This document shows, piece after piece, positions 10,048-14,451 of a stretch of DNA of 20,877 nucleotides (positions are counted from its first letter, which is position 1; each line of letters starts with the position of its first letter). Under the pieces are notes generated by a model. The model worked only from the letters and a program-made list of their open reading frames with translations, made no database searches and was not told the origin of the DNA. Source of the stretch: a virus. The stretch is from positions 1-20,877 of IMG/VR virus record IMGVR_UViG_3300042390_000894. One strand, written 5' to 3'. The position numbers and the translations under genes are program-made.

Positions 10048-10075
10048 GGCGGTATTCAAATAATTGAGTGCCGTT

Positions 10076-10717
10076 ATGAAACTATGTAAAAAATGTGGCG
10101 AGGTCAGGGAGTTAGCACAGTTTGTCAGAAACAAAAATAAGTCTGATGGTCTTCATACTGTTTGTAAGCCCTGCACCAAAATATACAAAGCTAAATATTA
10201 CGAGGACAACAAGACTGAAATTCTTCAGGAATTTCGTGAGCGGTATCAGGACAACCCTGAGAAATACCGAGAAGCAGAAAATAAACGCAGACAATCCAAC
10301 CCAGAGGCCTACAACCAAAAGGCTTTAACCTATCAAAAGCAGAACAAGGAAAAGGTGAATAAGCGGCATAGAGAGTGGGAAGGATCTCAGCGCAAAGAAA
10401 ACACTCAATTCAAAATGAGAGCATTTGTAAGACAAAACCTCAACAATGCCCTTAAGAGAAATAGCGTGAATTGTATTGCGGCCAATCACTTGGGTTGCTC
10501 GATAGCTTTCTATAAAGATTATTTATCTAAAAAGTTCAAAGATGGAATGAGCTGGGAAAATAGGGGTTGTCTTTGGTCTGTAGATCATATTGTCCCGCTG
10601 TCAGCCTTTGACTTAACCGATACTGATCAGCTTGCAAAAGCTTGTCATTACACTAATACGCAGCCTCTTTATATTGTTGAAAATAACAAAAAAGGAGGTG
10701 CAAACAGAGGAACTTAA
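10076..10717 (+). CDS. Free-standing HNH endonuclease (homing type)
   Basis: This is a 213-residue HNH nuclease with an N-terminal zinc-finger-like C4-C7...C30-C33 (KLCKKCGEV, HTVCKPC), a long Lys/Glu/Arg-rich helical linker, and a C-terminal HNH core. The core includes the lead-in HLGCSIAFYKDYL, GMSWENRG, DHIVPL at residues 170-175 (H171 as general base), and N194 and N203/K205 in NTQPLYIVENNKK. Such genes cut DNA at a target site and copy themselves into phages that lack them; they have no structural role. It lies between sheath and tube genes that are normally adjacent. I chose the ATG at 10076 (GAGTG 5 nt upstream); a TTG at 10064 is also possible. Its last codons carry the ribosome site of the tail tube gene, so insertion did not disrupt the downstream gene. 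Confidence 0.85.
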   Translation: MKLCKKCGEVRELAQFVRNKNKSDGLHTVCKPCTKIYKAKYYEDNKTEILQEFRERYQDNPEKYREAENKRRQSNPEAYNQKALTYQKQNKEKVNKRHREWEGSQRKENTQFKMRAFVRQNLNNALKRNSVNCIAANHLGCSIAFYKDYLSKKFKDGMSWENRGCLWSVDHIVPLSAFDLTDTDQLAKACHYTNTQPLYIVENNKKGGANRGT

Positions 10718-10718
10718 A

Positions 10719-11165
10719 ATGTCTGGAACTTATTCCTTTATGGACACCCAGTGCTCTTTAACGAGTGACGACGGTGTAATTGATTTGGGTTATGGTGCAG
10801 CTGTCGCAGATGAAGGAATTACCTTTGCAATGGCAGGTGATAAAAATACCATGACCATGGGTGCAGATGGTGAGGGCATGCATTCACTTCATGCAGATAA
10901 CTCTGGTCAAGTGACAATCCGCCTTTTAAAAACTTCACCAACTAATGCCAAGTTGATGAATATCTACATTACCCAAAAAGCATCAACACGAAAATGGGGC
11001 AAAAATACGATCACACTTAACCATAGCGGTTCAGGTGATAACCATACTGCCTCAAAATGTGCATTTAAAAAAGCGCCTGACTATACGAATGCTAAAGATG
11101 GCTCAACCGTTGAATGGGTATTTGACTCAATCAAAGTTGATATGAAACTTGGTACATACGAGTAA
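10719..11165 (+). CDS. Tail tube protein, DUF3277-like
   Basis: This 148-residue protein forms the inner tube of the contractile tail. The phrase VIDLGYGAAVADEGITFAMAG, followed by DKNTMTMGADGEGMHSLHADN, then VTIRLLKTSP, is characteristic of DUF3277 tail tube proteins. The start is the ATG at 10719, 1 nt after the HNH stop; upstream in-frame codons belong to the HNH gene in another frame. Two purine-rich sites precede it, AGGAGGTG about 20 nt and GAGGAA about 10 nt away, both inside the HNH coding region. Position before the chaperone and tape measure genes agrees. Confidence 0.86.
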   Translation: MSGTYSFMDTQCSLTSDDGVIDLGYGAAVADEGITFAMAGDKNTMTMGADGEGMHSLHADNSGQVTIRLLKTSPTNAKLMNIYITQKASTRKWGKNTITLNHSGSGDNHTASKCAFKKAPDYTNAKDGSTVEWVFDSIKVDMKLGTYE

Positions 11166-11170
11166 TTGAT

Positions 11171-11638
11171 ATGCAGATCACCATTAGCAATAAAAATTAT
11201 ACGATCGGGCGCTTAAATGCGCTCGATCAACTTCATGTGTCCCGAAAAATTGCCCCAATTGTCCCAAGCCTAATTCCAATCATTAGCGAGGTTGCTAAAG
11301 GTGGTCTTTCCAAGGTGATCGAATCTATGGAGGCTGGGGATGATATTGAGCTGGAAAATATTGATTTAACTGAACTCGATGGCCTATCAACAGCATTGGC
11401 ACCACTCATGGATGTTATTGCGGGCATGTCTGAAGGTGATACCAATCTGGTGATTCACAAATGTCTGTCTGTGGTGAACCGCGATGGTGCCGTGTTGTGC
11501 CGTGGTGAATCCATCATGTTTGATGACTTGGATATGATGCAGATCCTTCCCTTAGTTGTTGCTGTCATTCGAAAGAATCTGGGAAATTTTATTCAAGATC
11601 TTCTTATGAAGGCATTGAGCATGAAGAAGGTCGAATAA
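11171..11638 (+). CDS. Tail assembly chaperone, first reading frame (gpG-like)
   Basis: This is a 155-residue protein that should bind the tape measure protein and recruit tube subunits during tail assembly. It is recognised mainly by position (between tube and tape measure), its length close to lambda gpG, its helical, acidic composition (DIELENIDLTELDGL, MFDDLDMMQILPL), and a slippery site near its end. The zero-frame product ends in MKKVE. A fraction of ribosomes probably shifts to the -1 frame at 11581-11590 to make a longer form of about 219 residues. The ATG at 11171 lies 5 nt after the tube stop. Confidence 0.75.
   Translation: MQITISNKNYTIGRLNALDQLHVSRKIAPIVPSLIPIISEVAKGGLSKVIESMEAGDDIELENIDLTELDGLSTALAPLMDVIAGMSEGDTNLVIHKCLSVVNRDGAVLCRGESIMFDDLDMMQILPLVVAVIRKNLGNFIQDLLMKALSMKKVE
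11581..11590 (+). promoter_or_regulatory. Programmed -1 frameshift site, two overlapping slippery heptamers
   Basis: Read in the zero frame, the bases are G GGA AAT TTT. This contains two X-XXY-YYZ heptamers, GGGAAAT (11581-11587) and AAATTTT (11584-11590). The first differs only in its last base from the lambda G/T site GGGAAAG. The -1 frame is open from 11527 through 11826. Confidence 0.7.
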
Positions 11639-11829
11639 ATTTTAAGTGCTTGCCGAATCAGGAAGACTGGTTATTAAGGCCAGTCATTAAGGGTATGTGC
11701 AAGTATGAATCTATAATTGATGGAACTCTTGATTTAGCTGATATTGCTTTGATGAATGATGCTCTCGATGTTGTTGCTGACAATGAGTATCTGATTGAAG
11801 AAGCTAGGGAAAGAGAAAGTAAAAACTAA
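11587..11829 (+). CDS. Tail assembly chaperone, frameshift extension (gpT-like, DUF6889-like)
   Basis: This 80-codon extension is read in the -1 frame relative to the gene before it. It runs through LPNQEDWLLRPVIKGM and YESIIDGTLDLADIALMNDALDV, a conserved pattern I associate with the small DUF6889-type proteins found between tail tube and tape measure genes. No good start codon precedes the conserved part: an ATG at 11695 would delete LPNQEDWLLRPV and has no strong ribosome site, and a TTG at 11650 is unsupported. Expression by ribosomal frameshift from the upstream gene is the simplest reading and gives a lambda GT-like fusion. A terminator-like hairpin follows at once. Confidence 0.72.
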   Translation, partial: FYSRSSYEGIEHEEGRINFKCLPNQEDWLLRPVIKGMCKYESIIDGTLDLADIALMNDALDVVADNEYLIEEARERESKN

Positions 11830-11830
11830 G

Positions 11831-11857
11831 AAGCCTCCATTTTTGTGAGGCTTTTTT
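11831..11857 (+). terminator. Rho-independent terminator-like hairpin
   Basis: The stem AAGCCTC (11831-11837) / GAGGCTT (11847-11853) with a 9-nt T-rich loop is followed by T up to 11857. It directly follows the chaperone extension stop. The tape measure ATG is 24 nt further on, with AGAGGGTG as ribosome site. Confidence 0.75.
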
Positions 11858-11881
11858 ATGCCAATCAGAGGGTGATTTTTC

Positions 11882-14101
11882 ATGGCTCAAGCAGGTGTGA
11901 TTCGTGACTTCATGGTCGCATTAGGATTTAAAACTGATAATTCAGGTTTAGGCAAAATGCAAGATGCCATGAAGGGAGTAGAGCTTAAGGCTCAAGCATT
12001 GAATGGTGCATTAATGGCTTTAGCGACAGCAGCTGTTATAGCTGTTCGTCAAACAGCCAGTGAACTGGATAAGCTTTATTTTTCATCTCAGCGTATTGGT
12101 GCTAGCGTTACCAATATTAATGCCTACGGTAATGCTATTGCTCAAATGGGCGGTAGTGCGGAAGGTGCTATAGGTTCGCTTGAATCCTTAGCTGAAAAGA
12201 TGCGTAATTCTCCCGGCTATGAGGGAATGATCAATAGCCTCGGTGTACAAACCAAAGATGCGAATGGCGCAATGCGTGACCGTGTTGAAGTCATGAAGGA
12301 TCTAAGTGGTGTCTTGTCTAAGATGCCTGCGCACCAAGCCAATGCTTATGCCAATTCACTTGGTATTGATCAGAACACTTTGCTTGCAATGCGTGACGGC
12401 AAGTTTGTATCTAACATGGATAAATACCAGAAGATACAAAAAGAATTAGGTATGAATGACGACCTTGCTAAATCAGGCAATCAGTTTATGTCTGAATACC
12501 GTGATTTAACCATGATGACAAAGACTGGTTTTCAGGTCATTGTGATGCAGGCAGGTAAGGCTTTAATCCCAATTCTTAAGCTACTTAACACTTTAATCAT
12601 GGCGGGTATCTCTGCATTTAGTCAGTTGAACCCACAGATTAAAGAAGGCTTAGGGGTTGTATTGCGTTTTGGTATGGCTGCCCTTGTACTGGGTGCATTC
12701 ATTAAAACATTTGGGATGATTTTTAAGTTCATACCAATGTTGAAAGGATTTATCGGGCTACTTAAGTTATTTAGACTTGCTTTCCTTGCGTCACCGATTG
12801 GCATCATTCTGGCTTTAGCATCAGCCTTATATTTGCTATATGACGACTACAAAACATGGAAAGAAGGCGGTAAGTCGCTCTTTGACTGGTCTAAGTGGAC
12901 CAATGGTATCGATAAGATCATCGGGAAGATTAAAGACTTCTTGGCTATGTTGGATAAGATTAAAGACAAGGTAATTAACTTTGTTCAAAAGATCATCTCT
13001 GATCCCATTGCCGCCGTTCAAGATGTTGTTGAAGTTGCTAAGGATGCTGCTAAAAATGCGATAGATGAAGTCACAAAACCAACTACTGAGCCTACAAATG
13101 ATACGGTTAAAGCCGTGAATCAGGTCAGTAAGACCATTGTAGATAGCGTTAAAGAAACTACCAAGAAAGCTGTAGAGGTTGCAGTGGGTGTGGCTAAGGC
13201 TGTGCAGGGTGAGGTTAAGGGGGCGGTGGTTCAGTCAACCTCTGAAATACATACCGAGCTAGGTCGGGTGTCAGCTAAATATGAAGGGAAGATAGGAAGT
13301 GCAAACAAAGATATAGATCAAAATGGAAATCCAGCAGGTTGGGCTTATGGTAAATTCCAGTTTAATAGTGCAAAAGGTGGGCTTGATAAATTTATGTCAG
13401 ATAATCCCGAGATAAAAAAACACTTCAAAGGATTAACACCCGGAACCAATGCATTCAATAAAAAATGGAAAGAGTTAGCAAGGCTTGATCCCGTAAATTT
13501 CGAGAAAGCACAGAACAAAAGTGCCGCCAATTTATGGTATGCACCTGCTAAAAAGGCTTATGCAAAAGCAGGATTTGATCTTAAAAGCCGAGGTGTTCAA
13601 GAGGCTGTATTTAGTAGTTCAATTCAACATGGTGGGGTTGTTAGAAAATTACTCCCATTAATTCAAAAAATGGCAGAGAAGGATATTAAAGATCTAACAA
13701 CTCAGGAACAGATTAAATTGATCTATAAAGCAAGAACTAAATATCATGCAAACGGGAAGAAGCGATATGATAGTGAAGTAAGGGATGCTTTAAAGTTAAG
13801 CAATAGTCGAGATGGTAAAATCCCCACACCTCAAAATAGTAAGGATTTGGCTAATTTCGCTCAAGGTGCTGATATGCCACACATTCAGTCTTATGCACCA
13901 CCAAGTGGAAACCCACACAGAGGGCAGGTTAATAGCTCCAACATGTCTGCTTCAAATGTTACGATTCACCAGTCATTTAAAACTGATATGACGATTAATG
14001 GCGCTAGAGAACCAATTGAGTCAGCGAATGCGGTAAAACGCCATCAAGAAAATCAGTTAGCGTTTATGGCGAGAGGCGCAATGAATCCGCTTGCGGGTTA
14101 A
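11882..14101 (+). CDS. Tape measure protein with internal lysozyme-like domain
   Basis: This is the longest gene (739 residues). The product fixes tail length and leaves with the DNA during infection. Residues 1-240 are Ala/Gly-rich helices of the usual tape measure type (FMVALGFKTDNSGLGKMQ). Residues about 260-325 are strongly hydrophobic (ALVLGAFIKTFGMIF, ASPIGIILALASALYLL), probably for inner-membrane passage, followed by a coiled, Lys/Val-rich part to about 440. Residues about 455-640 look like a peptidoglycan-degrading domain: SAKYEGKIGS with candidate catalytic E468, GWAYGKFQFN, GVQEAVFSSSIQHGG, and LTTQEQIKLIYKARTKYH. Similar modules occur in tail-tip and VgrG-linked lysozymes. The last 100 residues are polar. 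Its stop shares the palindrome TTAA with the stop of the reverse-strand gene that follows. Confidence 0.85.
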   Translation: MAQAGVIRDFMVALGFKTDNSGLGKMQDAMKGVELKAQALNGALMALATAAVIAVRQTASELDKLYFSSQRIGASVTNINAYGNAIAQMGGSAEGAIGSLESLAEKMRNSPGYEGMINSLGVQTKDANGAMRDRVEVMKDLSGVLSKMPAHQANAYANSLGIDQNTLLAMRDGKFVSNMDKYQKIQKELGMNDDLAKSGNQFMSEYRDLTMMTKTGFQVIVMQAGKALIPILKLLNTLIMAGISAFSQLNPQIKEGLGVVLRFGMAALVLGAFIKTFGMIFKFIPMLKGFIGLLKLFRLAFLASPIGIILALASALYLLYDDYKTWKEGGKSLFDWSKWTNGIDKIIGKIKDFLAMLDKIKDKVINFVQKIISDPIAAVQDVVEVAKDAAKNAIDEVTKPTTEPTNDTVKAVNQVSKTIVDSVKETTKKAVEVAVGVAKAVQGEVKGAVVQSTSEIHTELGRVSAKYEGKIGSANKDIDQNGNPAGWAYGKFQFNSAKGGLDKFMSDNPEIKKHFKGLTPGTNAFNKKWKELARLDPVNFEKAQNKSAANLWYAPAKKAYAKAGFDLKSRGVQEAVFSSSIQHGGVVRKLLPLIQKMAEKDIKDLTTQEQIKLIYKARTKYHANGKKRYDSEVRDALKLSNSRDGKIPTPQNSKDLANFAQGADMPHIQSYAPPSGNPHRGQVNSSNMSASNVTIHQSFKTDMTINGAREPIESANAVKRHQENQLAFMARGAMNPLAG

Positions 14102-14451
14102 TAGCTCAATCTCTCATGCAACTCTTTTTCACGCGAAGTGGATTTGTTTATTAGGCATGAGAGTTGGTTAGAGGTGAATCCTGTTCTATCATCTACTCTA
14201 CTGGCATCATAGAAGCAATCAGCCTCTTTATATTGCACCCAGAGGCGTTGAGCTTTTATGAGTTGCTGCTTTGTTTCGGGAGGGGTTGTTTTTAGGTTTT
14301 CTTGATAAGTAGCCAGTAATCGTTTGTCTGCAGCATCAAGTTTACTTTGTAGGCATTCTCTTTTATCTGTAGCTGAATCTATATCAAGGCAATCCGCCCA
14401 AGCCCCTACACTTAAAATCGATGCAATTACGAGAAGTAGTAGTTTTTTCAT
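14098..14451 (-). CDS. Secreted LprI-family lysozyme-inhibitor-like protein
   Basis: This is the only reverse-strand gene I accept. It encodes 117 residues with a clear signal peptide (MKKLLLLVIASILSVGAWA, cleavage likely after AWA at 19) and a mature part of about 98 residues with four cysteines (C21, C33, C79, C99), enough for two disulfides. The pattern TDKRECLQSKLDAADKRL, LIKAQRLWVQYKEADC and a C-terminal CL...TSREKELHERL fits the LprI/DUF1311 family, some members of which inhibit lysozyme. It sits in the opposite direction inside a late operon, as phage morons often do, and probably has its own promoter in 14452-14574. A periplasmic protein that blocks muralytic enzymes could act in lysogenic conversion or in exclusion of related phages; that role is inferred. 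Confidence 0.75.
   Translation of the reverse strand: MKKLLLLVIASILSVGAWADCLDIDSATDKRECLQSKLDAADKRLLATYQENLKTTPPETKQQLIKAQRLWVQYKEADCFYDASRVDDRTGFTSNQLSCLINKSTSREKELHERLSY

Follow-up and report, generated by a model that had tools for sequence, protein, structure and literature searches.

Comparative evidence for a programmed −1 frameshift that would append DUF6889 to a phage tail assembly chaperone

Main

A programmed −1 frameshift in the tail assembly chaperone gene of a contractile-tailed phage is strongly supported by comparison of this gene with its relatives. The phage is known from a 20.9 kb virus record whose nearest relatives are Acinetobacter prophages and phages, and all 20,877 nucleotides of the record (the window) were analysed. 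Among relatives, the comparison shows a conserved −1 arrangement of two reading frames, a conserved slip site, a covarying downstream hairpin and a −1 frame that is under selection and lacks a conserved start codon of its own. We propose, with a probability of about 0.94, that two proteins are made from a single start by slippage at the heptamer A_AAT_TTT with the aid of the hairpin, that the longer product is a fusion carrying the DUF6889 domain, and that the two proteins have roles like those of their counterparts in phage lambda.

Reading frames and gene context

The chaperone gene is flanked by a tube-type gene and the tape measure gene, which is the expected place for a frameshifting chaperone (Table 1). 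Both domain assignments exceed the curated gathering scores of their families: the match of the zero-frame ORF to Phage_TAC_15 (PF21822) scores 87.3 bits against a cut-off of 22, and the match of the −1 frame to DUF6889 (PF21829) scores 69.3 bits against a cut-off of 23.9. In BFVD, an AlphaFold model of the chaperone (pLDDT 70) finds matches among predicted tail assembly chaperones of phages, and the DUF6889 model (mean pLDDT 86) is mainly one long helix. Sequence searches for solved structures returned no credible homologue of the chaperone or of DUF6889, a fold search of the PDB with the chaperone model likewise gave none, and comparison of the DUF6889 model with a viral structure library gave nothing significant.

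Table 1. Features at and around the predicted frameshift site, in window coordinates
Feature	Position	Strand	Remarks
Endonuclease VII/HNH-like ORF	10064-10717	+	phrog_1035, E=1e-16
Tail tube-type gene, upstream	10722..11165	+	PF11681 KPP10_Orf10, E=9e-49; position same in relatives
Zero-frame ORF, tail assembly chaperone (TAC)	11171..11638	+	155 aa; PF21822 Phage_TAC_15, E=1.5e-24; phrog_1688, E=2e-38
Overlapping heptamer G_GGA_AAT	11581..11587	+	preferred yet dispensable
Slip site A_AAT_TTT, conserved heptamer	11584..11590	+	most likely the working one
−1 part of predicted fusion	11587..11829	+	80 codons + TAA
Hairpin 5′ arm GATCTTCTT	11597..11605	+	begins 6 nt past AAATTTT
Hairpin 3′ arm AAGAAGGTC	11624..11632	+	directly before zero-frame stop
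DUF6889 domain	about 11698..11817	+	PF21829, E=2.2e-19; phrog_4364
Tape measure protein gene, downstream	11882..14101	+	phrog_2276 tail length tape measure, E=2e-70

At the site the zero frame reads CTG (11579), GGA (11582), AAT (11585), TTT (11588) and ATT (11591), and this frame ends at the TAA at 11636-11638. An earlier sequence-only reading had placed two overlapping in-frame heptamers here, and these are real: GGGAAAT and AAATTTT both lie in X_XXY_YYZ phase. Its description of the second frame as open from before the site to a TAA at 11827, and of a fusion of about 219 residues, is likewise accurate. The −1 frame is open from 11527 to 11829 (100 codons, with the TAA at 11827-11829), and the predicted fusion, join(11171..11590,11590..11829), is 219 aa long. 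The junction, ...RKNLGN-FYSR..., is identical for a slip at GGGAAAT, at AAATTTT or at the internal U_UUU tetramer. Because all registers yield the same fusion sequence, protein data or mass spectrometry could show the shift and not its register; the predicted tryptic peptides are NLGNFYSR for the fusion junction and NLGNFIQDLLMK for the short form.

Across the window's ORFs, 30 of 6,141 codon steps (0.49%) hold an in-frame XXXYYYZ heptamer. About 0.18 are expected in the 37-codon overlap in which the −1 frame is open, and two are observed. Overlapping heptamer pairs are found at three places in these ORFs, and the two besides this one are within A-rich runs. By themselves the heptamers are suggestive and no proof, and it is conservation that makes the case.

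Some neighbouring features are of separate interest. The endonuclease-like ORF separates the sheath and tube genes, which adjoin in relatives such as MD-2021a and SEN34, and is probably a mobile (homing) endonuclease insertion. The C terminus of the plus-strand tape measure protein contains a VgrG3-like domain (PF21277, E=3e-28), probably a cell-wall hydrolase integrated into this protein. Between the −1 stop and the tape measure start at 11882 is a terminator-like hairpin (11833-11863, plus strand; GCCTC...GAGGC, then TTTTTT) that could attenuate tape measure transcription; the closest relative, L001, has an equivalent of different sequence, and L004, L008, L044 and L074 have none. A minus-strand ORF at 14098-14451 lies among the tail genes and, with a start that resembles a signal peptide, looks like a putative small secreted-protein cargo gene.

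Conservation of the −1 arrangement

Protein searches for relatives covered viral contigs, genomes and annotated phages, and the survey set comprises the 163 distinct loci in which DUF6889 is aligned to its beginning. Searches of wide genome sets with PF21829 yielded few extra loci, viral contigs being far richer. Every one of the 163 loci has an upstream ORF of 90 codons or more that stops no more than 40 codons from the site, and relative to this ORF DUF6889 is always encoded in −1. The conserved −1 peptide starts exactly at the slip site, with first residues F[YF]xR, including in distant relatives. In many relatives a −1 stop stands just 4-10 nt 5′ of the site, so the frame can only be entered at the site. 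With this layout and a conserved site, comparison bears out the earlier prediction of a programmed −1 frameshift in the chaperone gene.

Past the zero-frame stop, the third positions of −1 codons are the most variable. In the comparison of the window with L001, for example, 7 first, 2 second and 21 third positions differ, third positions being about three times more variable than first positions. This is the pattern expected of a translated frame and, by this measure, the −1 frame is under purifying selection.

Conservation of the slip word

NNT_TTY is present at the site in 158 of the 163 distinct relatives. The second heptamer is perfect in 120 of them, as A_AAT_TTT (74), C_CCT_TT[TC] (40) or another perfect word (6), and about 38 have NNT_TTY without a perfect second heptamer. 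Several loci (L080, L081, L178, L240 and others) have only NNT_TTT, preceded by a first triplet that is not three identical bases, and P-site re-pairing must therefore be imperfect there.

Codon choice at the site is unusual. In Acinetobacter-type genes GGA accounts for 10% of glycine codons elsewhere but is found at the site in 45 of 48 genes, and the other three encode alanine or serine by GCA or TCA (GCA AAT TTT, TCA AAT TTT), which leaves A_AAT_TTT intact. Lineages that have exchanged asparagine for proline have CCT TTT in place of AAT TTT. The GGA bias and the nature of these swaps indicate that nucleotides are selected beyond the encoded protein.

The first heptamer fares differently. 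GGGAAAT is absent from 17 of the 69 GGA AAT TTT loci, through the wobble base of the preceding leucine codon, and also from the CCT-type relatives; all six leucine codons occur before the site among relatives. Systematic measurements in E. coli identified efficient −1 slip classes that include H_HH.U_UU.Y and V_VV.A_AA.R (PMC4066793). A_AAU_UUU and C_CCU_UUU fall inside these efficient classes and G_GGA_AAU falls outside them. Together these comparisons suggest that A_AAT_TTT, or C_CCT_TTT in other lineages, is most likely the word that matters, with GGGAAAT being repeatedly lost. The sequence-only reading had put forward the double heptamer as the new and key feature, with conservation of the heptamers among aligned relatives as the evidence to look for. 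The alignment upholds the second heptamer and goes against GGGAAAT, and that emphasis on the pair is not sustained.

A covarying downstream hairpin

Past the slip site, in a position overlooked by the sequence-only reading, the transcript can form a 9-bp stem with a predicted energy of −11.0 kcal/mol (RNAfold). The energy of the window's hairpin is unremarkable by itself (z −1.0 to −1.6) and is left out of the evidence. The stem was instead assessed by covariation, in an alignment that was built without regard to structure. Paired cells make up 90.1% of the stem, and sliding the partner by 1-3 columns lowers this to 54% or less. Double-changed cells number 31, against 7.8 in shuffles. RNAalifold recovered the same stem core. 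Reconstruction on a gene tree for which only sequence upstream of the site was used identifies seven independent double compensatory events at four pairs. Among the CCT-type relatives, 84% have a stem of 8 bp or more in the corresponding position, compared with 11% of control positions, and their fixed-position pairing is 84%, compared with 27-52% when slid.

In the enterobacterial branch (SEN34, Mulock and others) the slip site is present and no clear hairpin was found at the same spot. A pseudoknot between the hairpin loop and a downstream TGCC (about 11651) was considered and dropped, as inspection by eye showed that the complement is not kept in relatives.

One heptamer or two

A different account of the double site is that both heptamers act jointly to set the rate of slippage, GGGAAAT being a true contributor in this phage. 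The two heptamers occur together in the window and in 52 of the 163 relatives. The leucine codon before the site ends in G in 70% of cases in Acinetobacter-type genes, against 31% elsewhere, an enrichment that is inflated by the kinship of the sequences. Five relatives (L009, L095, L221, L223 and L233) have GGA AAT ATT or ACT at the site, which leaves only G_GGA_AAT of the two heptamers, and their hairpin of 9-10 bp is 2 nt closer, with 7 nt rather than 9 between AAT and the stem. Their sequences suggest that this clade slips in the overlapping G_GGA_AAT register. A G_GGA_AAT_ACT site occurs in Bordetella phage IFTN9. Against joint action, GGGAAAT has been lost repeatedly in close relatives (L008, L083, L014, L015, L017, L028, L036 and L038) in which the second heptamer stays, and its place outside the efficient E. 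coli classes (PMC4066793) also counts against it. On balance we consider joint action unlikely, and slippage at A_AAT_TTT is the reading that we prefer for this phage.

The five relatives also raise the possibility, which we hold tentatively and at slightly below even odds, that the signal of the Phage_TAC_15/DUF6889 genes has moved by one codon. Most members would use N_NNT_TTT with a hairpin about 6 nt on, and one clade would use G_GGA_AAT with a spacer that is again 7 nt. If such register switching is true, a double site like that of the window would be a natural intermediate.

Other origins of the second frame

DUF6889 could in principle be a separate small gene with a start of its own, perhaps coupled to the chaperone stop. 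The −1 frame of the window does contain an in-frame TTG (11650) and ATG (11695), and of the 18 annotated phage records, 7 give DUF6889 a small coding sequence of its own, 2 join the frames and 9 leave it out. A start survey of the relatives nevertheless found no conserved start codon for the frame, in agreement with the sequence-only view that it lacks a plausible start. In L044, L092, L094 and L104 no ATG, GTG or TTG occurs before residue 54-61 of about 79, which is inside the domain, and candidate starts in relatives seldom have a ribosome binding site. Any such start comes after the conserved F[YF]xR peptide, and a separate gene would leave the conserved slip word and hairpin unexplained. 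We rejected an independent start on the basis of the start survey, and regard it as very improbable.

The fusion might alternatively be made by RNA polymerase slippage instead of ribosomal slippage, as the site is A/T-rich. The runs are just three A and four T, however, or three C and four T in CCT-type relatives, and runs of three or four bases are short for RNA polymerase slippage. Conservation of the codon phase of the site and of the hairpin spacing points to the ribosome rather than the polymerase, and we rate polymerase slippage as even less probable than an independent start. A single gene that has decayed or been mis-sequenced could also give this picture, since an indel would yield two joinable frames. 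The relatives refute it, as all 163 distinct ones share the −1 layout and come from many separate assemblies. The purifying selection on the −1 frame also speaks against it, and its probability is negligible.

Proposed mechanism

In the mechanism that we favour, most ribosomes would read the zero frame to its end and produce the 155-aa tail assembly chaperone. A minority would back up by one base at A_AAT_TTT, with tRNA-Asn re-pairing from AAU to AAA and tRNA-Phe from UUU to UUU, and the 9-bp hairpin, 6 nt downstream, would aid this slippage. The slipped ribosomes would then read the −1 frame to 11829, yielding the 219-aa fusion that bears DUF6889. We infer both the occurrence of slippage and its rate from the comparison of sequences. 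If the roles follow those of lambda gpG/gpGT, the short form would coat the tape measure protein, to which the less abundant fusion would bring tail (tube) subunits via DUF6889.

This reading gives an identity to DUF6889, which is a separate hypothetical protein or is missed in 16 of the 18 annotated relatives, as the frameshift-appended part of a chaperone. It also provides a large natural data set of N_NNT_TTT sites with a covarying hairpin, which agrees with the laboratory rule that U_UUY is efficient in bacteria. The combination of NNT_TTY with a hairpin at +5 to +7 could be used by gene callers to annotate hundreds of phages correctly.

Comparison with known systems

The −1 frameshift mechanism itself is textbook knowledge. 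Its programmed use in tail chaperone genes is established, with lambda gpG/gpGT as the known case (reviewed in PMC5009743; see also Xu, Hendrix and Duda 2004, as cited in PMC4378225). As in lambda, the gene studied here lies between the tube and tape measure genes, encodes a short chaperone and a predicted −1 fusion with a C-terminal domain (PMC5009743), and has its slip site close to the end of the first ORF. It differs from lambda in its slip word, which is N_NNT_TTT rather than G_GGA_AAG, in its covarying downstream hairpin and in having DUF6889 as the appended domain. The likeness of GGGAAAT to the lambda GGGAAAG, to which the sequence-only reading had drawn attention, is superficial, because the changed base swaps the shifty lysine codon for asparagine and hence tRNA-Lys for tRNA-Asn in the A site. 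Pfam and PHROGs scans with E up to 1 revealed no relation to the lambda gpG or gpT families and listed only other chaperone families.

The Pseudomonas aeruginosa phage PaMx73 has a proposed −1 site, T TTT TTC, in its tail assembly ORF 35 that is alike in its U_UUY second codon (PMC4378225). PaMx73 is a Mu-like siphophage of another lineage with a different first codon, and the account of its site in that paper reports no comparative hairpin evidence. Open papers were searched for the A_AAT_TTT word (AAATTTT or AAAUUUU), and no published use of it as a slip site in phage tail genes emerged.

The closest precedents are Klebsiella phage Mulock (MN098327) and Burkholderia phage Magia (NC_070954), which have the homologous gene, the same −1 frame and the same domain. 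Their GenBank records contain a joined coding sequence named "tape measure chaperone frameshift product" that ends at the computed −1 stop, and the frameshift at the homologous gene is stated in the Magia paper (PMC7883833). The site is GGGAAATTTT in Mulock, without a clear hairpin at this spot, and CTC GGC CCT TTT in Magia, with a hairpin. Since Mulock and Magia already annotate a frameshift, the phenomenon is known in kind; what is added here is the slip-site rule, the hairpin, DUF6889 as a frameshift-appended domain and a clade in which slippage seems to take place in the other register.
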